Below are positions 1,990 through 25,504 of a stretch of 26,801 nucleotides of DNA, in pieces. A model generated the notes under the pieces. That model was given only the letters and a program-made list of their open reading frames with translations. It was not told the DNA's origin and made no database searches. A program made the translations under genes and the position numbers. Where the stretch lies: IMG/VR virus record IMGVR_UViG_3300025132_000234, positions 1 through 26,801 of that record, one strand, 5' to 3'. Source of the stretch: a virus. Every line of letters starts with the position of its first letter. Position 1 is the first letter of the stretch.

Positions 1990-2225
1990 TGGGATTTCAT
2001 AAACGATATATTGATGACAAACAAGTAATTGACATCTATAGAAATAATGGATGTCAAGCTGTCATTGATTGGTTCTCAAAAGGCGTGGACGCAGTTATAT
2101 TATCAGGGCCATTAGCAAGTGAAGTTAATGATCTAATGAATATTCTAGAACATGATAAGGTACGAGGATGGAATAGAATTTCAGAAACGATATCTAAAGC
2201 TTCCATGAAAAGACAACGAAGTTAA
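1989..2225 (+). CDS. hypothetical protein, 78 aa
   Basis: A small, probably mostly helical protein of unknown family. The ATG shares one base with the preceding TAA, a coupling arrangement repeated elsewhere in the window. Residues 8-32 (DDKQVIDIYRNNGCQAVIDWFSKG) form an amphipathic helix pair, and the C-terminus is basic (KASMKRQRS). No enzymatic motif is visible. It ends a tight cluster. The gap after it (2226-2246) holds one copy of the recurrent promoter-like motif. Confidence 0.6.
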   Translation: MGFHKRYIDDKQVIDIYRNNGCQAVIDWFSKGVDAVILSGPLASEVNDLMNILEHDKVRGWNRISETISKASMKRQRS

Positions 2226-2238
2226 TATTTATATAAAA
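2224..2238 (+). promoter_or_regulatory. late-promoter-like motif, copy 1
   Basis: The sequence AATATTTATATAAAA matches the recurrent motif (C/A)ATATTTATwTwAAA. It overlaps the last two bases of the preceding stop codon and ends 8 bases before the ATG at 2247. It is the least exact of the near-start copies. A role as a late promoter is inferred from recurrence at other gene starts and the presence of a gp55-like sigma gene. Confidence 0.35.
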
Positions 2239-2246
2239 GGGTAGAT

Positions 2247-2441
2247 ATGGCAAAATTTGGAATGTATACAAAAGGTGCTACTGAAAGTCGCCATCATATT
2301 AGTACGGTTGATGTTCAGTCTAAACAAGAAGCGGAAGCATACTTTGCAGGTCGTAAACAAATGACGTTGGCACAATTTCATAACATATTTATTGTCAAAG
2401 AAATTAATAATAATAATTCTAAAAATTTATTACTAGGCTAG
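2247..2441 (+). CDS. hypothetical protein, 64 aa
   Basis: A 64-residue protein with no recognised family. It starts MAKFGMYTKGATESRHHIST and has the pattern VDVQSKQEAEAYFAGRKQM followed by FHNIFIVKEI. A strand, a helix with a QEAEAYFAxRKxM core and a final hydrophobic strand suggest a small alpha/beta fold, of a kind common among tiny phage proteins. A weak GGG-type ribosome site (aaaagggtag) precedes the ATG by a few bases. The final TAG overlaps the GTG of the next gene, so the pair is probably translated together. Confidence 0.6.
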   Translation: MAKFGMYTKGATESRHHISTVDVQSKQEAEAYFAGRKQMTLAQFHNIFIVKEINNNNSKNLLLG

Positions 2442-2911: not shown

Positions 2912-2926
2912 CATATATATATTAAA
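2912..2926 (+). promoter_or_regulatory. late-promoter-like motif, copy 2 (hsp20 upstream)
   Basis: CATATATATATTAAA differs by one base from copies at 4862, 9578 and 13643. It begins right after the stop of the preceding gene and lies 81 bases before the hsp20 ATG, leaving room for a real 5' leader. The distance differs from the other copies, so its role here is less sure. Confidence 0.35.
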
Positions 2927-2942
2927 TAATCGAGTGATACTT

Positions 2943-2953
2943 TGCGGGTCGGT
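2943..2953 (+). repeat. left arm of 11-bp inverted repeat flanking hsp20
   Basis: TGCGGGTCGGT here is the exact reverse complement of ACCGACCCGCA at 3430-3440. The arms sit 54 bases before the hsp20 start and 8 bases after its stop. Both are strikingly GC-rich in an AT-rich genome. They could mark the ends of an imported cassette, or the 5' and 3' untranslated parts of the hsp20 message could pair. Confidence 0.8.
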
Positions 2954-2960
2954 CGGTTAT

Positions 2961-3007: not shown

Positions 3008-3421
3008 ATGGGAGAATTAACACTTTTTGGCACATCGCCATTCGACATCCTGTTCAGGGATTTTTACAAATCAGAAGCGGACTTTGCTCCGTTCAATCAA
3101 ATCAGAGTCAATCATCCAGTAGATATATATGAAGCCAAAGGTGGCGTTAATATTGATATTGCATGTGTTGGTTTAACAAAAAAAGATATTGATCTTACTA
3201 TTGAGGGAGATATCCTGCGTGTAGAATACAAAAAAGAAAAAGGTTCTGAAAGCGCAGAATACATTCAAAGAAATATCGCAAAACGATCATTTAACTTTGG
3301 GTGGAGAATTAGTAGAAGGTTTGATTTATCAAAACTAGATGCTAAATTACAAAATGGTTTACTTCATCTGTTTGCCCCGTTAACAGAAGATAACAAACCT
3401 AAAACGGTTACAATTAAGTAG
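3008..3421 (+). CDS. hsp20: Hsp20-family small heat-shock protein
   Basis: This 137-residue protein is an alpha-crystallin-domain chaperone, an ATP-independent holdase that keeps unfolding proteins soluble in the cytoplasm. The domain spans about residues 35-125, from HPVDIYEAKGGVNIDIACVG through LTKKDIDLTIEGDILRVEY, RNIAKRSFNFGWRISRRFDL and LDAKLQNGLLHLFAP; the last piece matches the family's A-x-x-x-N-G-x-L signature. The C-terminus (TVTIK) carries a V-x-I version of the IxI oligomerisation motif. T4-like marine phages are known to carry hsp20. A good ribosome site (aaggag, 2995-3000) precedes the ATG. Its first 100 bases are richer in G and C than the neighbours, and an 11-bp GC-rich inverted repeat brackets the gene, so separate acquisition is plausible. 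Confidence 0.92.
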   Translation: MGELTLFGTSPFDILFRDFYKSEADFAPFNQIRVNHPVDIYEAKGGVNIDIACVGLTKKDIDLTIEGDILRVEYKKEKGSESAEYIQRNIAKRSFNFGWRISRRFDLSKLDAKLQNGLLHLFAPLTEDNKPKTVTIK

Positions 3422-3429
3422 AACAAATC

Positions 3430-3440
3430 ACCGACCCGCA
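3430..3440 (+). repeat. right arm of 11-bp inverted repeat flanking hsp20
   Basis: ACCGACCCGCA pairs perfectly with the left arm at 2943-2953. Seven bases downstream a perfect 10-bp palindrome, GGTTATAACC (3447-3456), follows. CGGTTAT from this region (3446-3452) also recurs in direct orientation beside the left arm (2954-2960). Confidence 0.8.
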
Positions 3441-3446
3441 TTCACC

Positions 3447-3456
3447 GGTTATAACC
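3447..3456 (+). repeat. 10-bp perfect palindrome GGTTATAACC
   Basis: A self-complementary decamer between hsp20 and the next gene. It could be a dimeric-protein binding site or, with the adjacent repeat arm, part of a cassette boundary. It has no loop and no T-run, so it does not look like an intrinsic terminator. Confidence 0.4.
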
Positions 3457-3478
3457 ACCTTTAAAGAACTAATTACAT

Positions 3479-3736: not shown

Positions 3737-4822
3737 ATGAATAACAAAGTAAGACTAGGTTATGCTTGTGTTAATATGGGCTTAACTAATCGTAAAAAAA
3801 AGCATGGAGGTAAAGTCACTACCTCGAGGACAGCTAGAAAAGCAACTTGGCAATTAGGTTCAGATAATCCTAAAGACTGGGATTATGAATTGATAGGAGA
3901 GCGAGCATTGCTTAATGCAACTGATCTATTACATTATTTGAAATGGAATGAAGAACATGGTATTAGATTATTCCGTGTTGGTTCTGAATTGTTTCCATGG
4001 CATGATCATTATGAATTAAAAGATCTTCCTCAATTACCAGAAATATCTGAACGATTAATGGAGGCAGGTAATTATGCTCGTGCGCATGGTCATAGATTGA
4101 CCACTCATCCAGGTCCATTTCATGTATTAGGTTCACCAACTCAACCAGTAGTAGAAAAATCTATTATAGGTTTAGAACGTCATTCTGAAATGTGGGATCT
4201 TATGGGATATGAACCATCATTTGAAAATAAGATAAATATTCATGTTGGAGGAGCATATGGTGATCATGCAGCTACAGCAAAAAGATGGATTAAAACTTGG
4301 CATCGATTATCTGATAGATTGAAAGCTAGATTAGTTCTTGAAAATGATGATAAACCATCCATGTGGTCAACTCGAATGTTATATGATTATTTCCATAAAG
4401 AAATAGGAATACCGATTACATTTGATTATCATCATCATAGATTCCACCCAGATGAATTAACCGAGCAAGAAGCTTTAGAATTAGCTCGATCGACTTGGCC
4501 AGAAGGAGTTACTCAATGTACTCATTATTCAGAATCAAGACGTAGAGAAAAAGAAGGTAGGTTAAGACAGTTATGTGAAAACAATAACATTAATTTTGAA
4601 GATCTTGATAATGAAGATGATTGGCCAACTTTTTCTAGATTGAAAAAGAAGTGGGCCAAGACTCGTGAAAATGCCCATTCAGATTATATCATTGATGATA
4701 TTAATACATATGGATATGATTTAGATATTGTTGTAGAAGCAAAAGCCAAAGAATTGGCAGTATTGGGATGGAGAAATAAATATAAACAAGAAAAAAGGCC
4801 ACAATTGGCCGAACTTAGTTAA
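3737..4822 (+). CDS. uvsE: UV damage endonuclease (UvdE family)
   Basis: UvdE nicks DNA on the 5' side of pyrimidine dimers and other lesions, starting a repair route independent of UvrABC. The TIM-barrel family motifs appear in order: RLGYACVN at the N-terminus, FRVGSELFPW, THPGPFHVLGSP, NIHVGGAYGDHA, LVLEND, ITFDYHHHRFHP, QCTHYSES, AHSDYI and VEAKAKELAVLG. The His, Glu and Asp residues in these motifs are the family's metal ligands. The frame is open from a TTG at 3689, directly after the previous stop, but I prefer the ATG at 3737 because family members normally begin only a few residues before RLGY. A charged insertion of about 45 residues (RREKEGRLRQLCE...KKWAKTRENA) separates the THYSES and AHSDYI motifs. 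A phage copy would repair UV damage to its own genome in sunlit water. Confidence 0.9.
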   Translation: MNNKVRLGYACVNMGLTNRKKKHGGKVTTSRTARKATWQLGSDNPKDWDYELIGERALLNATDLLHYLKWNEEHGIRLFRVGSELFPWHDHYELKDLPQLPEISERLMEAGNYARAHGHRLTTHPGPFHVLGSPTQPVVEKSIIGLERHSEMWDLMGYEPSFENKINIHVGGAYGDHAATAKRWIKTWHRLSDRLKARLVLENDDKPSMWSTRMLYDYFHKEIGIPITFDYHHHRFHPDELTEQEALELARSTWPEGVTQCTHYSESRRREKEGRLRQLCENNNINFEDLDNEDDWPTFSRLKKKWAKTRENAHSDYIIDDINTYGYDLDIVVEAKAKELAVLGWRNKYKQEKRPQLAELS

Positions 4823-4895
4823 AATATAATATATTATTATTATTAATATTATTAATTATTATATATTTATATTAAATATTTTTAAATATAATTAT
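4819..4895 (+). other. 77-base stretch of only A and T
   Basis: No G or C occurs between G4818 and G4896, immediately after the UV endonuclease gene. The stretch holds short mirrored ATT/AAT runs, a promoter-like motif copy at 4862-4876, and no gene. It would melt very easily, which would suit a promoter region, a terminator-like end of the preceding transcript, or a DNA-unwinding element. I cannot choose among these from sequence alone. Confidence 0.6.
4862..4876 (+). promoter_or_regulatory. late-promoter-like motif, copy 3
   Basis: TATATTTATATTAAA matches the copy at 13643-13657 in 14 of 15 positions. It lies 60 bases before the ATG at 4937 and inside the AT-only stretch, where chance matches are more likely. 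It could drive the gene group from 4937 to 9572. Confidence 0.3.
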
Positions 4896-4936: not shown

Positions 4937-5116
4937 ATGAGTAATGTAAAAAATGCACCACAAGTTAAGATTCAACTTGATGAAGCGGATAATATGATTG
5001 GTATCTTACAAGATATTATTAGACGTGGAATGAAGATTGATCCTGCAGAAGCACAAAGAAGATTTACTGTTATAAGAGAAAAAATTAAATACGCTCAAGA
5101 TAGCATACAAAACTAA
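4937..5116 (+). CDS. hypothetical protein, 59 aa
   Basis: A short, easily overlooked gene. It has a clear ribosome site (aaaaaggagaaaagtt) before the ATG, and its stop lies 2 bases before the next gene. The protein begins MSNVKNAPQVKIQLDEADNM and is otherwise helical (IGILQDIIRRGMKI, then DPAEAQRRFTVIREKIKYAQDSIQ). This suggests a small helical-hairpin or dimerising protein. No family was recognised. The strong ribosome site, the tight spacing and the composition argue that it is real. Confidence 0.75.
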   Translation: MSNVKNAPQVKIQLDEADNMIGILQDIIRRGMKIDPAEAQRRFTVIREKIKYAQDSIQN

Positions 5117-5118
5117 TT

Positions 5119-6156
5119 ATGAAAAAAAGACTCTTTCCATTTCTAATAGGATTATCTGCTCTAGCCGTATCCGGCTCGGCTGCATTCTATTCTGTATTTG
5201 GATTGAGCAAATTATTTGCAGGTGCAAGCTTGCAAGTAATTATAATGGCTGGATCATTGGAATTTGCAAAATTAGTTACAGCATCTTTATTATATCAATA
5301 TTGGAGTACAATAAATAAGTTTATGAGATTTTATTTATCTGTAGCAGTATTTGTTTTAATGTTAATTACATCTGGTGGTATATATGGATTCTTATCTGGG
5401 GCCTATCAAGAAACGGCAACCAAGTCAGAATTCCTAGATAAATCATTAGCTGTATTGGAAACTAAACAAGAAAGGTTTGAAGAACAGAAGACGGATCTTA
5501 ATATAGAAAAGACGCAACTAAATACAACTATTTCTGATTTAAGAACTTCGCTTTCAAATCCAACTTCGGTATCTTATTGGGATGAAAATTCTCAATCAGT
5601 GATTACAACGACGTCTAGTTCAACAAGAAGAGCATTACAATCAGAATTAAAAACTACCATTGAAGATAGAGATAATATAAATCTAAAATTGGAAGCGGTA
5701 ATGGATTCGGTAATGAGAATTGATACAGAACTATTAGATTTAGAAATTGGTAATGAAGAACAAAGAGAACTTGGACCACTTAAATATTTAGCAGAAACGA
5801 CTGGTAAAGATATGGGTACTATAGTTAACTGGTTCTTATTATTAATAGTATTTGTTTTTGATCCATTAGCAATTGCATTAGTAGTTGCTGCCAATTTTGC
5901 ATTTGCACAAATCAAACCAAAAGAAAAAGAAGTTCCATCACCACATTATTCACCTCAAAGTTACATTCCTGAACCCGAATTGTATTCAGATGAAGATGAA
6001 AAAAGAATGGATGTAATTGGACAAAATGGTAATGATGGACTGCATTATGAAGAAACTAAAAAAGATTTAAAAACAGATATATACCAAGAAAAATTAAAAC
6101 CAGGATCAGATGGCCCCGGTAGAGTAGCTGGACCACCTAAAACTAAAAATTTATAA
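5119..6156 (+). CDS. four-helix membrane protein with coiled-coil domain
   Basis: This 345-residue protein has three predicted membrane helices near the N-terminus (about 7-27, 35-58, 72-92), a long charged coiled coil (about 100-145 and 170-210, with ETKQERFEEQKTDLNIEKTQ), and a fourth membrane helix (about 236-264). The tail is hydrophilic, rich in Pro and Lys, and probably cytoplasmic. The layout puts the coiled coil between membrane anchors, possibly outside the cytoplasm. I have the impression of similar proteins in marine T4-like phages but know no function. It could act in host membrane takeover, lysis control or superinfection exclusion; none of these is shown. It is not a typical holin, being too long and carrying a large soluble domain. 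Confidence 0.75.
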   Translation: MKKRLFPFLIGLSALAVSGSAAFYSVFGLSKLFAGASLQVIIMAGSLEFAKLVTASLLYQYWSTINKFMRFYLSVAVFVLMLITSGGIYGFLSGAYQETATKSEFLDKSLAVLETKQERFEEQKTDLNIEKTQLNTTISDLRTSLSNPTSVSYWDENSQSVITTTSSSTRRALQSELKTTIEDRDNINLKLEAVMDSVMRIDTELLDLEIGNEEQRELGPLKYLAETTGKDMGTIVNWFLLLIVFVFDPLAIALVVAANFAFAQIKPKEKEVPSPHYSPQSYIPEPELYSDEDEKRMDVIGQNGNDGLHYEETKKDLKTDIYQEKLKPGSDGPGRVAGPPKTKNL

Positions 6157-6679: not shown

Positions 6680-6721
6680 ATAATTTGGTATTTTGAAAAA
6701 AAGTTATTATATTAAAGTATT

Positions 6722-8485: not shown

Positions 8486-8769
8486 TAACAACAATAATAA
8501 TATTATCGGTGGCATTAGCAATATCAATATTTGTTAATATAAACCAATTACGTAAACAAGAGTCTCAATCAGATTACATTGATGATTTAGAAAAATCAAA
8601 TGTAGCATATTATGATTTTTTAGACCAATTAAAACTTAAAGTAAATCAAGCCAACTCTGAAATAAGAAACGCAGATAGACAAGGAGCATTTGAAGCATCA
8701 GACGAAGTAGGCACATCATTTAAAATTATTAAAGAAGTGATGGAAGACCTAAATCGTGGAGTTAACTAA
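8482..8769 (+). CDS. small membrane-anchored protein, 95 aa
   Basis: The start overlaps the HD gene by 4 bases (ATGA). Residues 3-20 (TTIIILSVALAISIFVNI) form one membrane helix or uncleaved signal anchor, followed by a charged coiled-coil-like region (RKQESQSDYIDDLEKSN, then YYDFLDQLKLKVNQANSEI). One anchor plus a coil is the shape of phage spanin-like or membrane-docking proteins, but there is no lipobox or paired gene, so I do not name it a spanin. Its stop overlaps the sigma-factor start (TAATG). Conservation of this close order in related phages would be informative. Confidence 0.65.
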   Translation: MITTIIILSVALAISIFVNINQLRKQESQSDYIDDLEKSNVAYYDFLDQLKLKVNQANSEIRNADRQGAFEASDEVGTSFKIIKEVMEDLNRGVN

Positions 8770-9572
8770 TGAATGAACAACCTAAATTATCACCGGTAGA
8801 TAAATTTTATGAATGGTTTGAAGCAGACAAACTTCGAATTGAAGAAGAAGCTAAATTACCAAAGAAGAAGCGTAGAGGTAGAAAGCCAACAAAAAAACAA
8901 TATTTCACATATATAACAGATCATGCAATTGTAGCATATAATCAAGAAGACGATTATATGAAGCGCAATAAAGTATACAGAGAACATATTGATTATGCAT
9001 TTAATAAGTTAGCTGAAAATATTATTCATACATTTAAATTTTATTATTTTGATGTACCATATCAAGATGTTAAATGTGAAGTCGTTGCATTTTTAAATGA
9101 AAAGATACATAAGTATCAATTAGAAAAAGGAAAAGCTTTTTCTTATTTTTCAATTATTGCAAAAAATTATCTTATTATTGCTAATAATGCTAATTACGCC
9201 AAAATGAAAGCAAGGACAGATATAACTGTTATTGACGATAGTAGAGATTTAGGTGGTGAAATGGTATATTCTGATTACCAAGAAAGTTTAAGAGATTTTA
9301 CAAATCAATTTGTAGAATATTATTCTACTAATCTAAACAATATATTTTCAAACAAGCGTGATATAATTGTCGCAGATACATTATTAGAATTATTTCGAAT
9401 TAGAGAAAATATAGAAAACTTTAATAAAAAGGCTTTATATATACTAATAAGAGAACGTACAGGATTAAAAACTCAAAATATTACCAAGGTAGTAAACATA
9501 ATGAAAAAACATTATCAAGATATGTTCTTAAAATACTCACATAAGGGGTTCATAGGCACCCATAAATCATAG
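8769..9572 (+). CDS. 55: late-transcription sigma factor (T4 gp55-like)
   Basis: This 267-residue protein matches the gp55-like sigma factors of T4-like marine phages, which replace the host sigma and direct RNA polymerase to late promoters. Visible landmarks are HAIVAYNQEDD (52-62), the FNKLAENIIHTFKFYYFDVP block (78-97) corresponding to sigma region 2, then VKCEVVAFLNEKIHKYQLEK and GKAFSYFSIIAKNYLI (121-136). Residues 32-43 (KKKRRGRKPTKK) form a basic patch like an AT-hook. The recognition is by remembered pattern, not a search. The gene overlaps the preceding stop by one base, and a promoter-like motif begins 5 bases after its stop, in front of the structural genes it would be expected to activate. 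Confidence 0.8.
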   Translation: MNEQPKLSPVDKFYEWFEADKLRIEEEAKLPKKKRRGRKPTKKQYFTYITDHAIVAYNQEDDYMKRNKVYREHIDYAFNKLAENIIHTFKFYYFDVPYQDVKCEVVAFLNEKIHKYQLEKGKAFSYFSIIAKNYLIIANNANYAKMKARTDITVIDDSRDLGGEMVYSDYQESLRDFTNQFVEYYSTNLNNIFSNKRDIIVADTLLELFRIRENIENFNKKALYILIRERTGLKTQNITKVVNIMKKHYQDMFLKYSHKGFIGTHKS

Positions 9573-9577: not shown

Positions 9578-9592
9578 CATATTTATTTTAAA
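9578..9592 (+). promoter_or_regulatory. late-promoter-like motif, copy 4 (start of structural block)
   Basis: CATATTTATTTTAAA begins 5 bases after the sigma gene stop and ends 11 bases before the ATG at 9604, overlapping the ribosome site aaaggag. Its position at the head of the structural block makes it the strongest candidate for a late promoter. If the first half is the -10 element, the message leader would be only about 10 bases. Confidence 0.45.
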
Positions 9593-9603: not shown

Positions 9604-9981
9604 ATGCATGATGAATTTGAATTATTCAAAGGCACTACATTTTCTGATTTAATGAAAGATATCTATCATAATTCTAAAAAGAAGGATAGACAAATCAATA
9701 CATTGATACAAGAATTGCAACCATTAATTAAAAATATAGGTGATGCAACAGTTATAGTCCCGTTAATAAAAGAATATCTAGATGTATCAGTTAAAAATGA
9801 TGAACATTTAGTTAAACTAGCAGCAGTTGTTCAAAGATTAGTTGGCTCTGCAACTAAAGAAGGTGGCGATGAATATGGCATGTCTGAAGAAGAAAAAGCT
9901 AGATTATTACAAACTGCACAAGAAGAATTAGATGCAATACATCAACAACAAGATGAAATTAATTTAGGAGATGCTAAATAA
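9604..9981 (+). CDS. conserved phage protein, 125 aa, function unknown
   Basis: First gene of the structural block. It begins MHDEFELFKGTTFSDLMKDI and looks almost entirely helical, with NTLIQELQPLIKN and TVIVPLIKEYLDVSVKNDEHLVKLAAVVQRL as hydrophobic-heptad segments, and has an acidic C-terminal tail (EEEKARLLQTAQEELDA). I have the impression that similar proteins occur beside hub genes in marine T4-like phages, but no function is known to me; a baseplate assembly or chaperone role would fit the place. A good ribosome site (aaaggag) precedes the ATG. The stop overlaps the hub gene start (TAATG). Confidence 0.7.
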   Translation: MHDEFELFKGTTFSDLMKDIYHNSKKKDRQINTLIQELQPLIKNIGDATVIVPLIKEYLDVSVKNDEHLVKLAAVVQRLVGSATKEGGDEYGMSEEEKARLLQTAQEELDAIHQQQDEINLGDAK

Positions 9982-12353
9982 TGTCACAAGGAATAACATG
10001 GGGATTTGGAGAAGTAGTTAGTACAGAACATACATACAACCAAACAACAGGTGCTGAACAAAAAAAAGATCGAGATAAACAAGGAAAGGCCGTTGGCGAA
10101 GATCAAGCTAATCCAAAATACCGAGGAGAAATTGAAGTTACTATGCAGGCCAATCAAGGAGGCCTACCAGGTGGCGGACTTGCAGGTGATACTGTAACTG
10201 CATATCCATCTGATATTAATATTACAAAGATTCCATTAGTTGGCGAACATGTTATAATGTATCAAGGTCCAGGATCAAATATGGGGTCAGCTCCACCCGA
10301 TCCAAAAACAGGAAAAAAGAAAACAGGAATAAACTATGATACAGAATGGTTTTATTTACCACCAATATCATTACGAGGACAGGTAGAACTTAATGTTAAT
10401 CCAATGGCGAATGCAGGAGGACCTAAAGGTAATCAAGTAATTCAAGATGGAGAACAAAAAAGTAAAACAGAAGCTTATTCAAATGCTGAAACAGGTAATC
10501 CATCGGTAGTAAATAAAAAACCTACTGGTGGTCAAGAAGGATCTGCAAAAAGTAGAAATACATTTCCTGATTATACAAAAGGAGAATTAGCACCTGATGA
10601 TATTGCAGAATTTCAAAGATTAGAACAACGTATTCTAGATTTAAATGATCCAGAAAATGAATTTTATAAATTTCAATTTGCAAATGCAGGAGGATTAGAA
10701 TCATCATCTGCAGGTGAAGCTCGTATTGAACAGCTTATTAAAGAAACAGAAGATGAAATTGAAGAATATAAAGAACAGTTAATAGAACATGTAGGATACC
10801 AAGGAAAGTTTATTGAATCAGAAGGAGATATAGATACCATAACAGGATATTTAGGATTGATTCCAGAACAAGAAGCTCAGAAAAAAGAAGAAGAATCTCA
10901 ACGAGAAGCGGAGATAGCTGGTAGAAATACAAATAAAAATACTAGTAATCAAAAAGGTGGAGGAAATGATAAAGCACAAAATACATTAGATACTGCACCA
11001 GGTAATGATTTTGTTGAAAAAGGATCTATCGGAAATCTACAGCCATATGAAGGTGATTTTTTATTACAAGGCAGGATGGGACAAAGTATAAGATTTGGAT
11101 CGCAAACATCTCCAAAAGACCCAGAACGATATGTACAACCACAACCATGGGGACAGGGAGAAGCACCAGAGGGATCACCTATTCTTACAATTAGGAACGG
11201 CCAATCGACTGATGCGGGTGGTGGTACTGCAAATAATTTTATTGTAGAAGATATCAACGGAGATAAATCATCTGTATACTTAACATCAGGACAAAAAATA
11301 TCAATAACTGTTGCAAGTCCTATATTTGATGCAATTGATAATGCAATTAGACAAGCAGATAGTCCAACATATAACGATTCAAATGGAAATCCAGTTCCAT
11401 CCTGGGATTGTAACGGTATTAGTGGACCAATAGAACCAATGGCAGGAACAAATGTAACAGATCCAGTTCCAGAAGACTGTGAAAAACTTCCATTAATAGA
11501 CATGACAGTAGAGTATTTTGATACTGAAAAAGGATCACCAACTCGTGGAAAGGTAATGGGAACAGATAGATTACGTATGATTCAAAAATGGCCTGTATTA
11601 GAACAATATGCTTGTATTATATTACAATTATTTCAAGCCGCGGAATCCAATGGTATTTTCTTAACATTGAATAGTGGATTTAGAGGTATTCATCAAATTA
11701 ATCATCCAATTACCGGAAAGAAATTAGCATCTGGTCAATTAAATTGTAGATATTCATGTGCAATAAACAGAGGATGGGCAACGGAGGCAAATAAAAAAGA
11801 TAGATCAAGTCCATTATGGAGAGCAAGATCATCAAAATTTAAACCATATGTTGCAATACCAGGATATAGTAGACATCAAAATGGAACAGCAATTGACATT
11901 AATTATAAAGATGGTAAAAATATTAATCATGGTACTGATAAACCAAAAAAAATTAAAAGAACTAAAACAACTGATTATGATGGAGTATATGCTTGGTTAA
12001 TTGCCAATACATATAAATTTGGATTTGTAAGAACTGTATCAACTGAAGAATGGCACTTTGAATATAATCCTACATTGGCAGCAAAAGGACCTTTTGGAAA
12101 ATTAGGACCAAGTAGTAGTAATAGATGGCATGGTTTAGATAAAGGTTGGCAAGCAGGAAAATTAGGACCTAATGGAAATAATACATGGTTTACAGACCAA
12201 TCAGTATTACCACCTGGCCATCCATGGAGTGATACACCATTACCTCAAGGTTTTATAGACACTGATGATGGGATACTTGAAAATACTGCTCAAGCAGCAT
12301 TAGAAATATTTTCATTTGGATTACTTGGTGATGATGATGGACTATTAGGATAA
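9981..12353 (+). CDS. 5: baseplate hub protein with M15 peptidase domain (gp5-like)
   Basis: This 790-residue protein appears to be the baseplate hub with a built-in wall-cutting enzyme. An OB-fold-like N-terminus (YRGEIEVTM, DINITKIPLVGEHVI, WFYLPPISLRGQ; about 45-135) resembles gp5 hubs. A charged coiled region follows (205-310), then the hub segment GNLQPYEGDFLLQGRMGQSI (351-370) through VYLTSGQKI. The peptidase part (about 500-700) has SGFR (565-568), SRHQNGTAID (630-639) and EEWHFEY (689-695), the M15 D-Ala-D-Ala peptidase pattern with likely zinc ligands His632, Asp639 and His692 and catalytic Glu689. It would cut peptidoglycan cross-links as the tail penetrates. GKLGP recurs at 706 and 726 in a 20-residue repeat. 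T4 gp5 carries a lysozyme instead, so this is a swapped enzyme. Confidence 0.88.
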   Translation: MSQGITWGFGEVVSTEHTYNQTTGAEQKKDRDKQGKAVGEDQANPKYRGEIEVTMQANQGGLPGGGLAGDTVTAYPSDINITKIPLVGEHVIMYQGPGSNMGSAPPDPKTGKKKTGINYDTEWFYLPPISLRGQVELNVNPMANAGGPKGNQVIQDGEQKSKTEAYSNAETGNPSVVNKKPTGGQEGSAKSRNTFPDYTKGELAPDDIAEFQRLEQRILDLNDPENEFYKFQFANAGGLESSSAGEARIEQLIKETEDEIEEYKEQLIEHVGYQGKFIESEGDIDTITGYLGLIPEQEAQKKEEESQREAEIAGRNTNKNTSNQKGGGNDKAQNTLDTAPGNDFVEKGSIGNLQPYEGDFLLQGRMGQSIRFGSQTSPKDPERYVQPQPWGQGEAPEGSPILTIRNGQSTDAGGGTANNFIVEDINGDKSSVYLTSGQKISITVASPIFDAIDNAIRQADSPTYNDSNGNPVPSWDCNGISGPIEPMAGTNVTDPVPEDCEKLPLIDMTVEYFDTEKGSPTRGKVMGTDRLRMIQKWPVLEQYACIILQLFQAAESNGIFLTLNSGFRGIHQINHPITGKKLASGQLNCRYSCAINRGWATEANKKDRSSPLWRARSSKFKPYVAIPGYSRHQNGTAIDINYKDGKNINHGTDKPKKIKRTKTTDYDGVYAWLIANTYKFGFVRTVSTEEWHFEYNPTLAAKGPFGKLGPSSSNRWHGLDKGWQAGKLGPNGNNTWFTDQSVLPPGHPWSDTPLPQGFIDTDDGILENTAQAALEIFSFGLLGDDDGLLG

Positions 12354-12364
12354 GGAGGATAAAA

Positions 12365-13642: not shown

Positions 13643-13657
13643 CATATTTATATTAAA
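13643..13657 (+). promoter_or_regulatory. late-promoter-like motif, copy 5
   Basis: CATATTTATATTAAA lies in the 56-base gap after the spike-like gene and ends 17 bases before the ATG at 13675, followed by the ribosome site cggagaa. It differs from the copy at 9578 by one base. It would start a second late transcript beginning with the small helical protein and gp25. Confidence 0.42.
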
Positions 13658-14783: not shown

Positions 14784-14795
14784 GGAAAATAAATT

Positions 14796-16676: not shown

Positions 16677-16687
16677 GGAAATAAATT

Positions 16688-17836
16688 ATGGCACAAGATC
16701 AAATATATGCACAAAGAGATGCAACAATATACGAAAAGAAAGTAAATTGCAATACAGGTATTGACCAAATACTTGAAATTGTATCTTCTAAATCTGGTTC
16801 GGTATTAGATGAGTTGTATCAAAATGGAACATATAATTCTCGTATATTAATAGACTTTACAGGAACTGAATTTACTGCCTTATCACAATCAATTGTGGAA
16901 GGAACTATTGGTTCAACATCACGAAAATTTTATTTAAACTTAAAAGGAGTGTATGCAACCGATTTACCAATTGCATATAATCTTGAAGCATATCCAATAT
17001 CTCAATCATGGTTGAATGGGACAGGTAATTATGCAGACAAGCCTGAAACAAGAAATGGTGTTGCATGGTCAACCCGTACAGGATTTGATGGTACAAATCA
17101 ACAATGGAACACAGGATCTGCTCATAGCGCAAATACATCAGCAGGCCTTGAAGTATCAACTGGTGGAGGTACTTGGATAACTGGTTCCGGATATGAAGCT
17201 TCACAATCATTTAATTATGAATCTACAGATGTTAGAATGGATGTGACAGATATTGTTGGTAAATGGTTAGATGGTACAATTACAAACTATGGATTCATGG
17301 TCAAATTACCATATTTATCTGAAACAACAGGAAATGAAAATTTTAATTTAAAATTCTTTTCAAGAGATACTCATACAATATATGCACCAAGATTAGAAGT
17401 TGTATGGTCAGACTTTACCGCAGCCGGTGGATCACAAACATCTGTAGTACATCAAACTAATGAAGGAGGACCAATAGTATATTTTAAAAATATAGAAGAA
17501 AAATATGCCGAAGGTTCTATAGTACAATTTAGATTAGGTGCAAGACAAAAATATCCAACTAAAACGTATACAACGTCATCATTTTATTTAGAATCAACCA
17601 AAAGATTAACAATAACAAGTTCATATTCAGTATGTGATGGAGTTACAGGAGAAACAATATTAGATTATGATGATACATATACACAAATAAGTTATGATTC
17701 AGATGGTAGTTATTTTAACTATAGAATGAATGCATTAAGTCCAGAAAGGTATTATAAATTTAAACTTAGATCAAAATATGATGATGGTACAATAAAATAT
17801 TTTGATAATGGTTATTACTTTAAAGTGGTAAGATAA
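16688..17836 (+). CDS. DNRLRE-domain structural protein, 382 aa
   Basis: A structural protein with a DNRLRE-type beta-sandwich (about residues 10-243). DATIYEKKVNCNTGIDQILEI fits the domain's usual DATIxExxPxxNxGxxxxL opening, and VTDIVGKWLDGTITNYGFMV with RDTHTIYAPRLEVVW fits its ending. The C-terminal 130 residues are rich in Tyr and Thr and probably beta. DNRLRE folds are common in adhesins, so contact with the host or connection within the tail is likely, but neither is shown. It lies between gp6 and the large fibre-like proteins, a place where baseplate-periphery proteins occur. No leader or membrane helix is present. Confidence 0.7.
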   Translation: MAQDQIYAQRDATIYEKKVNCNTGIDQILEIVSSKSGSVLDELYQNGTYNSRILIDFTGTEFTALSQSIVEGTIGSTSRKFYLNLKGVYATDLPIAYNLEAYPISQSWLNGTGNYADKPETRNGVAWSTRTGFDGTNQQWNTGSAHSANTSAGLEVSTGGGTWITGSGYEASQSFNYESTDVRMDVTDIVGKWLDGTITNYGFMVKLPYLSETTGNENFNLKFFSRDTHTIYAPRLEVVWSDFTAAGGSQTSVVHQTNEGGPIVYFKNIEEKYAEGSIVQFRLGARQKYPTKTYTTSSFYLESTKRLTITSSYSVCDGVTGETILDYDDTYTQISYDSDGSYFNYRMNALSPERYYKFKLRSKYDDGTIKYFDNGYYFKVVR

Positions 17837-17837
17837 A

Positions 17838-19646
17838 ATGGCAACAACTCAGTATAGAAATAAAACAAAAGCATCAGTTTCAGAACGAGTAGCTACAGAT
17901 GATCAAATATTTAAAAAATTAAATAAAGCGATGAATGGTCTTGATAAACCAGTCAATCAAACAGCTACCATACAAACTCATCCTGAAGCTATTAAACCAG
18001 ATGGCACAGTTGCTCAATCAGATGCTGATATCAAATTGATACAAGGCCAACCTGAACGAACACCGACTGGTGTATTAGAATATCGCGAAGAAAAAGAAAA
18101 TGAAAACTTTCCTATCAAGGTATCATTACAGACAACTAAATACGAAGTAGAATCATTTTATGGAGCTATCAATGAAAATTTTGGCCACTTCTTACAAGGA
18201 TTTAATCAAGAGCCATTAGTAGCACCATCTATTACAGTAACAGCTGGTCCAACATTTGTACAAGAACAAGTAGTAATAGACGGAGGTAAGCCTGAAGATA
18301 TTGATCAATCAATAGAAGAATCAGAAACACCATTTAAAACGGCTGGAGAAGTGCATGGAAAAGAATTCCGAGTAATTACAGAAATAAATTCAGCTGGTAA
18401 TTTTACAGGAATTTTGGCAAATGCAATGTTTATGGTATGGAAAGGAATTAGATATAAATTTTATAATGGTGATACTGATACTACTATTCCAGGAGCAGAA
18501 GTACATACTACAGAATTGACAAATGGAGGAAAAAATACTCTTACATCAGCTGCAACTAACCCAGGACCAATTAAAGGATTAACAAATTCTTATGCAGGAA
18601 GAAATCTAGAAGTATTTCTTAAAGAACGTGACATGTCATATGCTGATGTAGAAATATTACCTGCAGCCGAAGTAAATGAACTTATGGAAATATCACAAGT
18701 AGTTGGAATGGATGTTTGGGATACCATACAATGGAATAGTGCTGCAAATGATGGATTTCAATATAATCAAAATGCAGTGGTAATAAATGAAGTAGAATAT
18801 GAACCAGGAGATATTATTAATCCTGCAGGAGATGACAATGACTCTCCAACAGATAGAATATTTTTACCTGAAATACATGATAGATGGACAGAATACCATA
18901 CATTTGACGTAGGCAAGCCTGCTCATAGATCATTAATATATAAACCAACTGCAGATGAATTAAGAAATAAAGTATATGAAGGTAAACCAATACGAGGATA
19001 TACAGGAGGAACTACAACTGGTTATTATATGATAATGGAAGGAGAGATCTATAAAATAAGCAGTGGTGGAGTATTTTTCTTAGCAACAGTAAATGAAACA
19101 CCATTTAGTGTTAACGAAGAAGGTAATAATAACTATAGTGAATATCATAAAGCATCATATATTACGATGGATTGGACTGAAATAAGATATCTTGGAACAC
19201 CAGGTAATAAACCAACTAAGTTGCAAGAAGATCCTTCTTTAAGAGTTAGAATGGCTCAACATTATGATGGTGGTGGATGGACCATAGATCTACCTACAGG
19301 TAAATGGAGAGCTGCAGGAACTAGTTATTCTGGATTTTCTAATTATTCTGGATTTATAAATAATGATGCATCATATTTAAATGTGCCAACAGGATTAGGT
19401 ATTGAAATATATGATGATCCAGGATCAAACTCCCAAGATTTTAGTAATAAAACATATAATGGACCTGCTACAGTAAATCTAGATGGAAGTAAAAATGATG
19501 ATATTTCTGCAGTTAGAGTATTTTACAATGAAGGAATTGAAGCTCCTAAAGGATATAGAGGTCATAGTGAAGTTAAAAAGTACTTTGCAGGAGAAACGTT
19601 TTATAAAAAACCACATCTTGCTGAATATAATAAATTATTTGAATAG
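17838..19646 (+). CDS. putative tail/baseplate structural protein, 602 aa
   Basis: A large protein with no recognised domain, starting MATTQYRNKTKASVSERVAT one base after the previous stop. The first 130 residues are polar and include a helix (DDQIFKKLNKAMNGL) and a conserved-looking stretch (FPIKVSLQTTKYEVESFYGA). The rest looks beta-rich with many Gly, Thr and Asn. A late segment (YSGFSNYSGFINNDASYLN) carries an internal YSGF repeat. Size, place between gp6 and the 1937-residue protein, and composition suggest a baseplate or fibre component, but I cannot name it. An ion- or ligand-binding role is not indicated by any motif. Confidence 0.65.
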   Translation: MATTQYRNKTKASVSERVATDDQIFKKLNKAMNGLDKPVNQTATIQTHPEAIKPDGTVAQSDADIKLIQGQPERTPTGVLEYREEKENENFPIKVSLQTTKYEVESFYGAINENFGHFLQGFNQEPLVAPSITVTAGPTFVQEQVVIDGGKPEDIDQSIEESETPFKTAGEVHGKEFRVITEINSAGNFTGILANAMFMVWKGIRYKFYNGDTDTTIPGAEVHTTELTNGGKNTLTSAATNPGPIKGLTNSYAGRNLEVFLKERDMSYADVEILPAAEVNELMEISQVVGMDVWDTIQWNSAANDGFQYNQNAVVINEVEYEPGDIINPAGDDNDSPTDRIFLPEIHDRWTEYHTFDVGKPAHRSLIYKPTADELRNKVYEGKPIRGYTGGTTTGYYMIMEGEIYKISSGGVFFLATVNETPFSVNEEGNNNYSEYHKASYITMDWTEIRYLGTPGNKPTKLQEDPSLRVRMAQHYDGGGWTIDLPTGKWRAAGTSYSGFSNYSGFINNDASYLNVPTGLGIEIYDDPGSNSQDFSNKTYNGPATVNLDGSKNDDISAVRVFYNEGIEAPKGYRGHSEVKKYFAGETFYKKPHLAEYNKLFE

Positions 19647-19652
19647 GAACAA

Positions 19653-22600
19653 ATGTCATTAGATAATTACATAAATAGAATTAATATTATTTCATCCACC
19701 CAACCAATGGATGCAATCCAATTACGAGCTGAAGATCAAGATGTTATAAAAAATGAAATAGTAGAAATACGTGATTTCAATGATCCTGCATTAGATGAAA
19801 TTATTGAATTACATGTTTATGATTCAGTAGGAAGTTACGTAACAAGTGATCATACATCTGATAATTGGAAACATTTTGCTGACGAAGATAGCTTTGTACA
19901 ATATGATATATATAAAAATTTAAATGATATTGGAATAACTCAAGGAACATTTAAATTTGTTTTAAATTTTCATAGAACATTAGTTGGAAATTCGAATAAT
20001 GCTAATTTATATATAAAAGAAATATCACCTGATAGGACAGAACTTTTAGTAAAAATAGGCGATGATCATATAAAATCAGAAGCAAAGGATAAATCAAATA
20101 CTAAAGAAATTGATGTAACTACGCATGATCAACTATCAATGTTTGAAAAGCGTCGTCCAGAAATATGTAATGATGATGGCTTTGTTCATTTGATGTTCAT
20201 GAATATGGGTAATAACAGATTGATTCAATTTGTTAATTACAAGTATTTATTTGAAATGGAAGAATTGTATATTAAATTATATACACCATTACCAGAATCA
20301 ATTAAAGAAAAACAAAAGTTTTGGATTGCACAACAAATAAGGCAGCCATATACAGATAATGCTGTACTTTATAGAAAACCAATTGAATCACCTACAACAT
20401 CATTACGTGGACCTAATTTTGAAATAGAAACTAAATTTACAAAAATTAATGAAACAAATTTTGAAAGTTGGAATGATTTATTAGGATCATCTGTTGCAAC
20501 ATCTCAACAAATTGTAGATAGTATATTTTCAGGATCATTAGGAGGAATGGACCTAGGAATTGATTATTCAGGATTTCAAAATTTTATAAACTTTTCATCA
20601 GCAGCAGAAAGATTAAAAAACTTTAAATATAAAGTAGAGTTAATTGAATATTATAATGATCAAATAACAACTTTAAATTCTATATCTGAATCCAATGAAG
20701 TAAATGCTAATAAATCATTGTATAAAAAATATAAAGACAATGTTATAGGCGGATTTGATGGTTTTGAAAGGTATATGTATAAAGAACAAACTGGAAGTTT
20801 TTATACTCATGGAACATCTGGATCTGCAATATTTAATGATACATTTACAGTAGAACCGTGGCCAAAAATTGAATATAGAATAACAGGATCAGCTGATGGA
20901 TTATATCCAGGAGCACAATATCAACTATCTCATACCACATCATCAATTGCCGTCAGTTATTATGAAGGAATTTTAGCATCTGCATCATTATGGGACACTC
21001 ATAATTCAGCCGCATTAATTAAAGCTGTTCCTGAACATATTAGAGAAGATCAGAACAACCAAGAATTTGAAGTATTTGTTAACATGGTCGGCCAACATTA
21101 TGATATTTTATGGACATATATAAAACATCAAACCGATGTATACAATCGCGATGAACATTATGCTCATGGTATGTCTAAAAATTTATTATATGATGCAGCT
21201 GAATCTATGGGATGGCATTTAGTAAACGGAAATCAATCAGAAAGATTATTTGAATATTTACTAGGAACTAATGAACAAGGCGAATTTGGAAAAATTAATG
21301 ATCGAAAAATTGATCAAGACTTAGTATTATATGTACCATTCGATGAAGGTAGACCAGATTTTGCAAGAAAGAATTTTGTTGATTATAGTCCAAGACAAGA
21401 TCAGTTATTTGATTATAATAAGCCGTCATTTGTTCCTGGAGCTCATGGTCATGGTGCATTTTTTGATGGAAACAATTTCTTGAGATATAATACACCATAT
21501 GATTATGGAACTGGTGATTATGCTATTTCATTCTGGATAAAAGATCTTTATGCAGGTGGTGCATCAACAATATTTAGTGCCACATCAGGCTCTGGTGGTG
21601 GAATAGACACAGGTATTCATATTTCACCACTAGTGGGAGAAATATATTTCCAACAATATTATACAGGTTCAAATGGAGCACATACAGTAATCCTACCAGC
21701 ATCAGTAGTAAATAGATTTTCATCATCTTATTTAGATTCATCATCTCCGCAAGGTCAATCAACTGGTGGTGAATCAAATGGATGGCATCATATTGTGTTT
21801 AATGTTGATAGACAAGAAAGTGCATCAGTATATGTAAATGGCGAGTTTCAAGCTGGAACAGACATAAGCATATCTGCATCAGCTGATATTGGCCCCGAAT
21901 CTACAGGAGACTTTCCAAGACCAGTTATTGGAGCTCGAGCACCAACTGGAGATGATGCACCAACTAATAAATTAACTGGTTCATTGGATGAATTCCGAAT
22001 ATACAAAAAGAAATTAACTACATCTGAAATAGTAGAATTATATACAGACGGTGGATTATATGTAACTCAATCATCCGCAGTAACATTGGCAACACCAAAA
22101 GAAGCTTTAAGTACTCAAGTATGGAGAAGAATAGTTAACAATTTACCTCATCTTTTGAAAACAAAAGGAACATCAAGATCAGTTAAAGCATTGTTATCAT
22201 GTTATGGTATTCCAGAATCATTATTATCTATCAGAGAATATGGCGGACCTAAAATGCCAGAAACTCAACCTGCAGCAATAGAAGAAAGATTTTCATATGC
22301 ATTAAATATTAGTTCTGGTTCTGTGTTAAGATTTCCAAGTGATAATTATTACACCACCGCATCAGGTTGGGGCCTAGCAGCTGAACGCAATACAACATTA
22401 AGTGAAGCCCCAGATGCAATACAAGGTGGTTTACCAAATGGAAGACATTTAAATAATAGACCACCTGATACTAGAGAGATACGAATCAGGCCAGCTGGTA
22501 CATCATCAATGTATGTAATATCTAGTCGAGCAATGGCATCTCCTGATAATATGCATTGGGCATTAGGTATTCAACATACCGCATCATTTTCAGGTAGCAG

Positions 22601-25466
22601 CGACTATGGACGATTGTTTTTCCAATATAGAGATTTAGGCGCTGACGGTTCAGTTCAAGATGAAAAATTAGGAAATGCTAATACAAGTTATTCGCCATAT
22701 GTTCCATTGTATGACGGTGAATTTTGGAATATAAGATTATGGACACAGTATCCATTTATAACATCTAGTCATGACACTGCAACAGTTCCAAACATATATT
22801 TTGAAACACAAAAAGCATCAGATTATATTTCTGGAAAAATATTACATCAAGCATCAGGTTCATTGAATCCTGGATCTGGATCGAGTCCAACAAATGGTGA
22901 AGCATTACTTAAATATTGGATATCAGATCCGTCAACCAAAGAGATTGTAATAGGTGGAGCTACAGGTAGTGGATTATTTGGAGCAGCTGGAATTATAGCA
23001 GGAACCTTTACCGGTTCAATGCAAGAATATCGTGAATGGTTAGAAATACTTGATGATGATACATTTGACAAGCATACATTAAACCCAAAATCATATGTAT
23101 CGTCATTATCACCATCTTCATCATATGACACTTTAGTTAGGCATTATCCATTAGGAACCAATCAAATTGCATATGATCATACTCAAACATTATTTATAAC
23201 ATCATCTCATCCAAATTACGAAATACAAGATTTTTCTAATCCAGATACAGATGGAGTCACTCAGCATGCAACCATGTCAGGATTTTTTGCACCAACTGAT
23301 ACTATAAACAATGATCATTATGACCGAGTAGATGAAACTTATTATATTCATGGACCAAGTATTGGTGGTAAAAATTTAAAATCTGAAAAGATTAGAATAG
23401 AATCAAATAAATTAATTCATCCATTGAGTAGAGAAACAAGAGGTGAAGTTAGTCAATTTGATCGAGTATCAAATGATTCCAATCGATTAGGTATTTATTT
23501 TTCTCCTCAAGATATGATTAATAAAGATATTTTTAATCAAATAGGATCTACGGCATTAGATGATTTCTTTGGTTCTGCAGAAGATCAATATAAAGATAAC
23601 TATCCAAGATTTAAAAGATTTGCTCATGATTATTGGAAAAAATATGAAAATGATAATGATTTAAATGCTTATATAAGAATATTTGCTTTATTTGATTTTT
23701 CATTTTTCCAGCAAGTTAAACAATTAATTCCTGTTAGGACAAATGCAGATACAGGGCTTATAATTGAGCCAAGTGTACTAGAGAGGTCTAAAGTAATGGT
23801 AGAAGCAGAACCTTCAAGAGAAGAACTGCATTATGAGGATAACATACCAGATCCATTCCCGAATCCATTAATGGAAACATTGCCATTAACAGGATCTATC
23901 CAATCTACAGAACCATTAGCTGCAGAACCAATGCATTATACTGCATCTATTACAAACATAATTTCGCAATCAGCTGAAACATTACATTACACTGCATCTA
24001 TTTCAAATATAATGTATAGCGGTTCTGGAGAAGATTTAACATTTACTAGTTCTATAAAAGATAAAATTGTAACACTGTCACCAGAATTTTTACCTGTATA
24101 TTCAATGACAACTTCAAGTGTTGAAGAAGCTGATATTCTTGACCCAGGTGTAGATTTATTTAATATTAGAAGCGGCCATCAAGGTGCAATCTATCAACAT
24201 ATAAGCGCATTTCATTCATCTGTATACGGATGGACAACTCAATCAAGATCACCATTAGAATATTCAGCAACTCAATCAATTATAACAGAACAAAGAAAAT
24301 CAAATATTTACAAGAAAAAAGTGTTTAGTTATGCACCAACTGATGATGTAACAAGATTTTATCCATTGAATGAATTTAATGGAACTCAAATATTAGACCA
24401 GTCACCAGGAGCCCGAGAACATTCAAAACAATTAATACAGTTAGATCAAGGATTACTACTTACTGGTAATGTTGCAACCGCATCCGCATCAGACTTTACA
24501 TTTGAAACTATTACTCATAATAACTTTACAGGACAAGCTTTAATATTTTCTGCATCGGTAAGTGAGTCTGTTCAAAAAAGAGGTGCACAATTTGTAGAAA
24601 TACCAAGATTTGTTGGAACTAGAAAAGGTCAATGGGCATTATCATTTGTTGTGAAAAATTCTCAAGCATTTACGAATCCTAATACAGCAAGCATATTGAT
24701 TGGAGGTAATTATTCAACCAATGATGGTGTAGGTCCTGGAGGATCAACTGATGCAACTACCAGACCAGGTATTTGGTTTGAAGGCAGTAAAATACGTCCA
24801 AGAGATGCAACCGGCCAATATTGGACATTTAGTTCAGCTGCTATTATATCAGAACCAGCTGAGACAAATCATATTGTATTGAATTGGAACGGTTATGATT
24901 TGGATTATCCAGCAACTGGTTCATTTGAAGTATATGTTAACGGTGAATTGAAAGACACTATAAGAAGAGGTATAACAGGTGCGTCAAATTCTGAAAGATC
25001 TGGTTCATTCTATTTTGAAGCTTTAGGTGGTGCATATTATTCTTCCACCAATACTCATCAATTCTCTGGTTCATTGTCAAATGTAAGATTCTATGATAAA
25101 AACTTAGATGAACAAGAAATATCTTATTTGAATAGATATCCACATTTGAGAGCAAATAGAGATATTGATAATATATACGGTCGTGGTCGAGAAATAATGA
25201 CAAGACAAAGAAGAAGTAATGGATATTCACCATTTACAGATTTAGGTTTAGTTGCAACTAGTGCATCATTAGAAACAGCCGATTATAGAGATGATGCAAA
25301 AGATTCATCATTTTTTAAAGGTTCAAAATTAACTGCACCAAACATAAATGCCCCATCAGATAATGATGTGGATGGTGAAGAAGTAATAAAAATAACAGAA
25401 AGAAATAGATATAATTTGATTTATAAAAAAGATTTACCAGATGGCGCTAATTTAGATGTTAGATAA
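19653..25466 (+). CDS. giant baseplate/tail protein with concanavalin-like domains
   Basis: A 1937-residue protein, the largest in the window. The N-terminus (SLDNYINRINIISSTQPMDA and following) resembles large proteins of marine T4-like phages. Three lectin-like regions are visible: a LamG-type domain at about 557-800 (LVLYVPFDEG, YAISFWIKDL, GWHHIVFNVD, SVYVNGEF, GSLDEFRIYKK), a divergent jelly-roll at about 877-1150 (VPLYDGEFWNIRLW), and another LamG at about 1567-1833 (FYPLNEFNG, HIVLNWNG, FEVYVNGEL, GSLSNVRFYDKNL). Between the first two, LLKTKGTSRSVKALLSCYGI (834-853) is the motif seen in baseplate gp7/P2 gpI-like proteins. A four-unit repeat lies at 1408-1477. Likely roles are wedge scaffold and receptor binding to surface sugars. 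Assignment to gp7 is possible but unproven. Confidence 0.75.
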   Translation: MSLDNYINRINIISSTQPMDAIQLRAEDQDVIKNEIVEIRDFNDPALDEIIELHVYDSVGSYVTSDHTSDNWKHFADEDSFVQYDIYKNLNDIGITQGTFKFVLNFHRTLVGNSNNANLYIKEISPDRTELLVKIGDDHIKSEAKDKSNTKEIDVTTHDQLSMFEKRRPEICNDDGFVHLMFMNMGNNRLIQFVNYKYLFEMEELYIKLYTPLPESIKEKQKFWIAQQIRQPYTDNAVLYRKPIESPTTSLRGPNFEIETKFTKINETNFESWNDLLGSSVATSQQIVDSIFSGSLGGMDLGIDYSGFQNFINFSSAAERLKNFKYKVELIEYYNDQITTLNSISESNEVNANKSLYKKYKDNVIGGFDGFERYMYKEQTGSFYTHGTSGSAIFNDTFTVEPWPKIEYRITGSADGLYPGAQYQLSHTTSSIAVSYYEGILASASLWDTHNSAALIKAVPEHIREDQNNQEFEVFVNMVGQHYDILWTYIKHQTDVYNRDEHYAHGMSKNLLYDAAESMGWHLVNGNQSERLFEYLLGTNEQGEFGKINDRKIDQDLVLYVPFDEGRPDFARKNFVDYSPRQDQLFDYNKPSFVPGAHGHGAFFDGNNFLRYNTPYDYGTGDYAISFWIKDLYAGGASTIFSATSGSGGGIDTGIHISPLVGEIYFQQYYTGSNGAHTVILPASVVNRFSSSYLDSSSPQGQSTGGESNGWHHIVFNVDRQESASVYVNGEFQAGTDISISASADIGPESTGDFPRPVIGARAPTGDDAPTNKLTGSLDEFRIYKKKLTTSEIVELYTDGGLYVTQSSAVTLATPKEALSTQVWRRIVNNLPHLLKTKGTSRSVKALLSCYGIPESLLSIREYGGPKMPETQPAAIEERFSYALNISSGSVLRFPSDNYYTTASGWGLAAERNTTLSEAPDAIQGGLPNGRHLNNRPPDTREIRIRPAGTSSMYVISSRAMASPDNMHWALGIQHTASFSGSSDYGRLFFQYRDLGADGSVQDEKLGNANTSYSPYVPLYDGEFWNIRLWTQYPFITSSHDTATVPNIYFETQKASDYISGKILHQASGSLNPGSGSSPTNGEALLKYWISDPSTKEIVIGGATGSGLFGAAGIIAGTFTGSMQEYREWLEILDDDTFDKHTLNPKSYVSSLSPSSSYDTLVRHYPLGTNQIAYDHTQTLFITSSHPNYEIQDFSNPDTDGVTQHATMSGFFAPTDTINNDHYDRVDETYYIHGPSIGGKNLKSEKIRIESNKLIHPLSRETRGEVSQFDRVSNDSNRLGIYFSPQDMINKDIFNQIGSTALDDFFGSAEDQYKDNYPRFKRFAHDYWKKYENDNDLNAYIRIFALFDFSFFQQVKQLIPVRTNADTGLIIEPSVLERSKVMVEAEPSREELHYEDNIPDPFPNPLMETLPLTGSIQSTEPLAAEPMHYTASITNIISQSAETLHYTASISNIMYSGSGEDLTFTSSIKDKIVTLSPEFLPVYSMTTSSVEEADILDPGVDLFNIRSGHQGAIYQHISAFHSSVYGWTTQSRSPLEYSATQSIITEQRKSNIYKKKVFSYAPTDDVTRFYPLNEFNGTQILDQSPGAREHSKQLIQLDQGLLLTGNVATASASDFTFETITHNNFTGQALIFSASVSESVQKRGAQFVEIPRFVGTRKGQWALSFVVKNSQAFTNPNTASILIGGNYSTNDGVGPGGSTDATTRPGIWFEGSKIRPRDATGQYWTFSSAAIISEPAETNHIVLNWNGYDLDYPATGSFEVYVNGELKDTIRRGITGASNSERSGSFYFEALGGAYYSSTNTHQFSGSLSNVRFYDKNLDEQEISYLNRYPHLRANRDIDNIYGRGREIMTRQRRSNGYSPFTDLGLVATSASLETADYRDDAKDSSFFKGSKLTAPNINAPSDNDVDGEEVIKITERNRYNLIYKKDLPDGANLDVR
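23874..24083 (+). repeat. four 17-18-residue repeats inside the giant tail protein
   Basis: Units begin at 23874, 23925, 23976 and 24030. Each starts Glu-x-Leu/Met and carries a (L/Y/F)TxSI core: ETLPLTGSIQ, EPMHYTASITNI, ETLHYTASISNI, EDLTFTSSIKDK. Units 2 and 3 are nearly identical at protein level and similar in DNA. The pattern suggests stacked strands, such as a short beta-helix or fibre shaft, linking the N-terminal body to the C-terminal LamG domain. Confidence 0.7.
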
Positions 25467-25489
25467 ATGGTATACTTTTCAATGATAAA

Positions 25490-25504
25490 CATATTTATTT
25501 AAAA
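25490..25504 (+). promoter_or_regulatory. late-promoter-like motif, copy 6
   Basis: CATATTTATTTAAAA lies in the 54-base gap after the giant protein gene and ends 16 bases before the ATG at 25521. The ribosome site aaaaggg follows. A separate promoter here would raise expression of the last two proteins relative to the giant gene. Confidence 0.42.

Follow-up and report, generated by a model that had tools for sequence, protein, structure and literature searches.

A strand-specific A+T-rich element before structural genes as the very probable late promoter of a large group of aquatic phages

The stretch of DNA considered here, referred to throughout as the window, is a virus record of 26,801 nt (26.8 kb) from IMG/VR with 32% G+C (68% A+T), and nearly all of its genes lie on the + strand. 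Encoded within it are myovirus baseplate genes, a ClpP-like protease and homologues of GroES, Hsp20 and UvdE. An open reading frame (ORF) at 8769-9572 (+) encodes a 267-aa candidate late sigma factor, and the order around it (phosphohydrolase or protease, small gene, sigma-like gene, small gene, baseplate) is the same in Flavobacterium phage immuto (NC_055915) and Microcystis phage Mel-JY01 (PP395634). Just upstream of structural genes there recurs an A+T-rich element whose core, ATATTTAT, is followed by a few A/T and then AAA. This element is very probably the late promoter, with a T4-like layout, of a large aquatic phage group, where "late" genes are those so judged by their structural function and not by their expression.

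Six copies of the element were listed in a sequence-only reading of the window, and all six were confirmed on the + strand; five (copies 1, 3, 4, 5 and 6) are exact matches to the 14-mer ATATTTATWTWAAA, and the other carries one mismatch. The exact 15-mer with a G after AAA proved too strict as a definition of the motif. Copy 1 (ATATTTATATAAAA, 2224..2238) would serve the ORF at 2247-2441; its box shares bases with the stop codon of ORF 1989-2225, and its predicted +1 lies near 2238. Copy 2 (ATATATATATTAAA, 2912..2926), which reads CATATATATATTAAA over this interval and ATATATAT in its core, precedes the hsp20 gene (3008-3421). Because 12 of 18 distinct relatives have a true ATATTTAT before the same gene, copy 2 is best regarded as a decayed copy, and its inclusion despite the mismatch was fair. 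Copy 3 (ATATTTATATTAAA, 4862..4876) lies before ORFs 4937-5116 and 5119-6156 with a leader of about 60 nt, and is kept, in partly palindromic form, in three relatives (G001, G002 and G003). Copy 4 (ATATTTATTTTAAA, 9578..9592), five bases after the sigma-like gene as the earlier reading had it, stands directly before a GGAG Shine-Dalgarno sequence and ORF 9604-9981 and heads the block 9604-13618. Copy 5 (again ATATTTATATTAAA, 13643..13657) precedes the baseplate block 13675-25466 and is kept in the same three relatives. Lastly, copy 6 (ATATTTATTTAAAA, 25490..25504) precedes ORF 25521-26195, and its site is kept in G001 and in the Flavobacterium and Microcystis phages.

The five copies of TATTTATWWWAAA in the window compare with 0.17 expected from whole-window dinucleotide shuffles, and with 0.07 when the intergenic gaps are shuffled alone. 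Allowing up to one mismatch yields seven forward and no reverse matches, the seventh, at 16462, being inside a gene. With two mismatches allowed, 21 matches compare with 14.9 expected, an excess too weak for such degenerate matches to mean anything. Eight gaps in the window measure at least 20 nt, five of which hold a strict copy and one the decayed copy. The claim that the motif marks nearly every real intergenic gap was therefore somewhat strong, as the gaps at 3422-3478 and at 6680-6721, upstream of the ClpP-like gene, contain no copy.

Larger relatives extend this pattern well beyond the window. Their gene calls are our own ORF picks, and copies with distinct flanks were counted to reduce redundancy among viral contigs, which are fragments and partly redundant. 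The 103-kb relative G001 has 23 copies on the + strand and three on the - strand, against 0.53 expected, and none is centered in a gene; two of the three minus-strand copies are palindromic overlaps of + copies. Sense ATATTTAT occurs 25 times in G001 vs. 1.1 expected, and the copies there stand upstream of the portal, head-completion, tail sheath, tail tube and baseplate hub genes, among others. All fetched relatives together yield 186 copies that differ in their flanks, and for 179 of these an open start codon lies within 70 nt; the reverse strand of the fetched loci gives 13 matches, all at one orthologous palindromic site. The enrichment upstream of late genes over shuffled sequence, by strand and by distance to starts, is strong both in the window and in larger relatives; the sequence-based refuting outcome set by the earlier reading, no enrichment of this kind, did not occur. 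Behind the sigma-like ORF, at the site of copy 4, the motif is almost invariant in nearly all of about 38 distinct relatives and is also kept in the Flavobacterium phage. Its distance to the stop codon and its flanks vary at this site, to the point that it may overlap the stop codon of the sigma-like gene.

Methods that presuppose less of the motif point to the same letters. The most enriched octamer upstream of starts in k-mer counts is ATATTTAT, in G001 and in G005-G007 alike, and random-seed expectation-maximization over 311 upstream zones recovers cATATTTATATtAAA / nncATATTTATATtAA in 28% of the zones. An alignment of 71 copies picked by the pattern TATTTATNNNAAA has a conserved C and A before the core and A/T, then AAA, after it; the invariance of the TATTTATNNNAAA letters is built in, because the copies were selected by that pattern. 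The downstream WWWAAA was, however, found independently in the marine group, both by anchoring on ATATTTAT alone and by expectation-maximization. The 71 copies have no -35 element: between -50 and -6, counted from the core, no position carries more than 0.19 bit of information.

The element is also found in phages of quite different hosts. Phages immuto and Mel-JY01 (42-45% identity in the sigma-like protein) carry sense ATATTTAT within 45 nt upstream of starts 20 times vs. 1.1 expected and 19 times vs. 2.5 expected, respectively. Genes preceded by the box include those for terminase, tail sheath, tail tube, baseplate hub and PhoH in immuto, and for portal, tube and hub in Mel-JY01. Sharing of sites among reciprocal best hits exceeds expectation in both (Fisher p=0.006 for immuto, p=0.002 for Mel-JY01). 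More distant viral contigs, with sigma-like proteins 45-65% identical, have 60 upstream copies vs. 9.2 expected, and the site persists at orthologous positions down to 45-50% identity in the adjoining sigma-like gene. The proposal that these are late promoters is supported by both the enrichment and this orthologous conservation.

Distances from box to start are bimodal, with a spike at 5 nt and then a group at 13-18 nt. At 5 nt the start is leaderless, ATG beginning with the final A of AAA, and a spacing of 13-18 nt leaves room for a Shine-Dalgarno sequence; nine distinct copies lie at 5 nt, and no further copies occur until 10 nt. ORF 2247-2441 of the window has a 14-nt spacing, while its orthologues in G001, G002 and G003 have the box fused to ATG and begin MxKFG right at the last A of AAA. 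A transcription start at this A would agree with the nearest start codons beginning there and with the fused orthologues, which is supporting and not decisive. Terminators followed by a box make up 11 cases, several of them before a tube or hub gene. Among gaps holding both features, the terminator is upstream of the box in six of six in immuto and four of six in Mel-JY01, and there is one more case in G001. Because the terminator stands upstream of the box, transcription must restart into the next gene if the terminator works.

In bacteriophage T4, the late promoter box TATAAATA spans -13 to -6 and is read by gp55 together with gp33 and gp45. The layout of that promoter, in which an 8-bp box lies about one helical turn ahead of the start, the DNA below the box is A+T-rich and a -35 element is absent (PMC2988020), is shared by the element described here, which likewise has one -10-type A+T box, an A+T-rich stretch downstream (here WWWAAA) and no -35, lies before head and tail genes, and would have a similar box-to-start spacing. 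The spelling differs. The sense core here, ATATTTAT(A), is the reverse complement of TATAAATA, and a conserved C before the core and AAA after it are additional. The notion of a T4 late-promoter variant thus stands with respect to layout, but the core is not a drifted TATAAATA. A control on a 50-kb late stretch of T4 gave 12 sense copies of TATAAATA vs. 0.4 expected, with ATATTTAT present four times in sense and eight times in antisense; sense TATAAATA is no more frequent than chance in the marine relatives (one vs. 1.0 in G001). Late promoters of T4-related phages, with a/gC at -13/-12 in Aeh1 and forms close to T4 in KVP40, 44RR and S-PM2, set a precedent for a gp55-type box that varies between phages (PMC2988020), although all four keep the base order of T4 and the box here does not. 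Ma-LMM01, a Microcystis phage and likewise a cyanobacterial myovirus with studied late promoters, has no gp55 and its promoters are SigA-like (WTNNANN16-22TATTMT; PMC5780444), unlike the present box. A gp45-type clamp (PF02916) was not detected in G001, immuto or Mel-JY01. The motif's reverse complement contains TATAAATA, and it could accordingly be read as a T4-type promoter facing away from the gene; this is unlikely because the short distance to the downstream start is fixed and leftward genes are absent. No relative with genes on both strands, suited to a test of polarity, was found. One reverse-strand copy in G001 (TATTTATATTAAATG, flipped coordinates 4316-4328) is fused to a 24-codon ORF (MKERIDITPAIYIGLMIAIFLLAI), which is either chance or a tiny leftward gene.

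The protein that would read the box is probably encoded beside it. Viral contigs encode relatives of the ORF 8769-9572 product in at least 585 places. AlphaFold models are all-helical (mean predicted local distance difference test scores of 78 and 87), with a sigma2-like core and additional C-terminal helices, the C-termini differing among the family. Aligned by hhalign, the family profile matches that of T4 gp55 over 114 columns of the sigma2 part (P=3.4e-4), and the closest competitor among 25 control families of these phages reaches P=0.039. Among the orthologues the phrog_234 (gp55) model matches that of immuto alone (E=0.008), with no other match in the immuto genome, and the Sigma70_r2 model gives weak matches in three of 39 proteins. 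Foldseek matches are mostly to sigma factors, including among viral models the phage sigma factor S5MMM6 (E=0.009, prob 1.0), and sigmaE region 2 is matched at a template modeling score of 0.49-0.62, depending on target length. A sequence search of the PDB returned irrelevant matches or none. From these profile and model comparisons, a sigma factor with a region-2-like core is probable; the resemblance to gp55 and to sigma-70 region 2 is weak but consistent. The family departs from gp55 in being longer (~230-275 aa vs. 187) and in having C-terminal helices that gp55 lacks, and its similarity lies at the edge of detection. The gp55-like label of the earlier reading is plausible and weak, and naming the product gp55 is not justified. 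Every box-bearing genome here also has an orthologue of the gene, which is no independent test because relatives were collected through this gene or its neighbors.

What the data show directly is the element, with its strand, placement, conservation and enrichment statistics; the promoter activity, late timing, start site and sigma pairing that we infer from these comparisons would fit together as follows. The core (C)ATATTTAT would act as a -10-type box, followed by three A/T and AAA. Core RNA polymerase of the host would be equipped with the sigma-like product of ORF 8769-9572, or of its orthologue, and would melt this A+T-rich stretch. If the T4 register holds here, the last A of AAA, some 6 nt past the octamer, would be the transcription start. 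The blocks for head, tail and baseplate would be transcribed in succession, with a restart after terminators. We hold with considerable confidence that a late promoter of this kind, with a -10-type box, no -35 and a phage sigma-like protein on host core polymerase, is the best explanation, and the motif is probably read by a phage-encoded, poorly recognized sigma factor. Several observations weigh against it. The window protein itself has no Pfam or PHROG match, the hhalign probability of the gp55 match is 38, and Foldseek matches in the PDB to sigma regions and whole sigmas are weaker (E above 0.2). The floor at 5 nt is partly forced, since AAA excludes an earlier ATG, and in the marine set the terminator association falls short of significance. 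In the Microcystis phage the AAA part is less pronounced, no copy was detected directly upstream of the major capsid gene, and some copies precede genes not known as late, such as those for PhoH and single-stranded-DNA-binding protein.

The identity of the reader is where an alternative deserves most attention. A real promoter might be read by another phage sigma, or by an activator with a host sigma, as the sigma signal of the ORF 8769-9572 protein is weak and these genomes hold many ORFs of no assigned function. Set against this, that family is the best gp55 match of 25, the Sigma70_r2 and r4 Pfam models find nothing in the whole genomes of G001, immuto and Mel-JY01 (and do match in T4), and the sigma-like gene travels with the box over a wide range; we consider another reader rather unlikely. 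That a host sigma70 reads the motif, with TATATT as its -10 box, is decidedly improbable. TATATT is present in some copies (TTTATATTAAA), phages often use host promoters, and relative G007 has a sigma70-like TTGACT-16-TATATT in the gap orthologous to 6680-6721. Yet copies such as TATTTATTTTAAA and TATTTATTAAAAA keep ATATTTAT without TATATT, the 71-copy alignment lacks TTGACA and TATAAT at 16-18 nt and indeed any -35, and the octamer is common to phages of Bacteroidota and Cyanobacteriota hosts.

Strand specificity and a place just upstream of Shine-Dalgarno sequences would also suit an RNA element, either a site of nuclease processing or an AU-rich enhancer of translation ahead of ribosome-binding sites, and processed 5' ends would look alike. 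We regard this as very improbable: some copies are fused to the start codon and others lie 60-70 nt away, terminators directly upstream of copies call for a restart of transcription, and the Flavobacterium phage retains the motif without obvious Shine-Dalgarno sequences. Chance, which the sequence-only reading had asked to be excluded, might be entertained for a genome of 68% A+T in which two-mismatch copies are common; it is hardly credible given the shuffle enrichment, the expectation-maximization recovery and the confinement to start codons, and the family-wide counts refute it.

Late promoters read by a phage sigma are already known; what would be new here is a box spelt the other way round, a sigma lineage apart from gp55 and the breadth of hosts. 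A search of the open literature turned up no account of this box, and surveys of marine T4-like phages have sought late promoters only by the T4 word TATAAAT (PMC3037559; PMC9004378). We lean, by a little, toward a separate late-promoter class in which the T4 box appears as its reverse complement, served by a sigma lineage of its own, a distant relative of gp55, in a very large group of aquatic myoviruses infecting Bacteroidota and Cyanobacteriota, and with part of the mRNAs starting at AUG. Viral stretches encoding relatives of the sigma-like gene number at least 585, yet no Pfam or PHROG family recognizes it. Knowledge of the box would make late operons and start sites readable from sequence in the uncultured phages of this group, and the box and the sigma-like protein together lend themselves to the question of how the -10 preference of a sigma region 2 changes.

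Other features of these genomes merit mention. The baseplate block of the window includes a gp25-like gene (14148-14783, +) and a gp6-like gene (14796-16676, +), both assigned by PHROG/Pfam baseplate matches, and in the baseplate region the interval 9981-12353 encodes a 790-aa protein with a VanY-type peptidase domain that is probably a tail-associated peptidoglycan hydrolase. The hsp20 gene is flanked by an inverted repeat, TGCGGGTCGGT / ACCGACCCGCA, at 2943-2953 and 3430-3440, 491 nt apart, with no Rfam match. Its pairing is kept in relatives despite changes on both arms (TTGCGGGTTGGC/GCCAACCCGCAA; CATCACTGCGGGTTGTA/TACAACCCGCAGTGATG; AACACTGCGGGT/ACCCGCAGTGTT), even with an extra gene between the arms (~710 nt), and it may possibly represent long-range mRNA pairing of the leader with the 3' end. 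Phage immuto has a second repeated upstream element, ATATTTAGGTATCAATAATT, perhaps another promoter class, whose octamers occur in 9-19 copies before starts at more than 10 times expectation. In Mel-JY01, a AACAACCTAACAGG-type repeat lies just before starts, with six to seven copies vs. about 0.1 expected.

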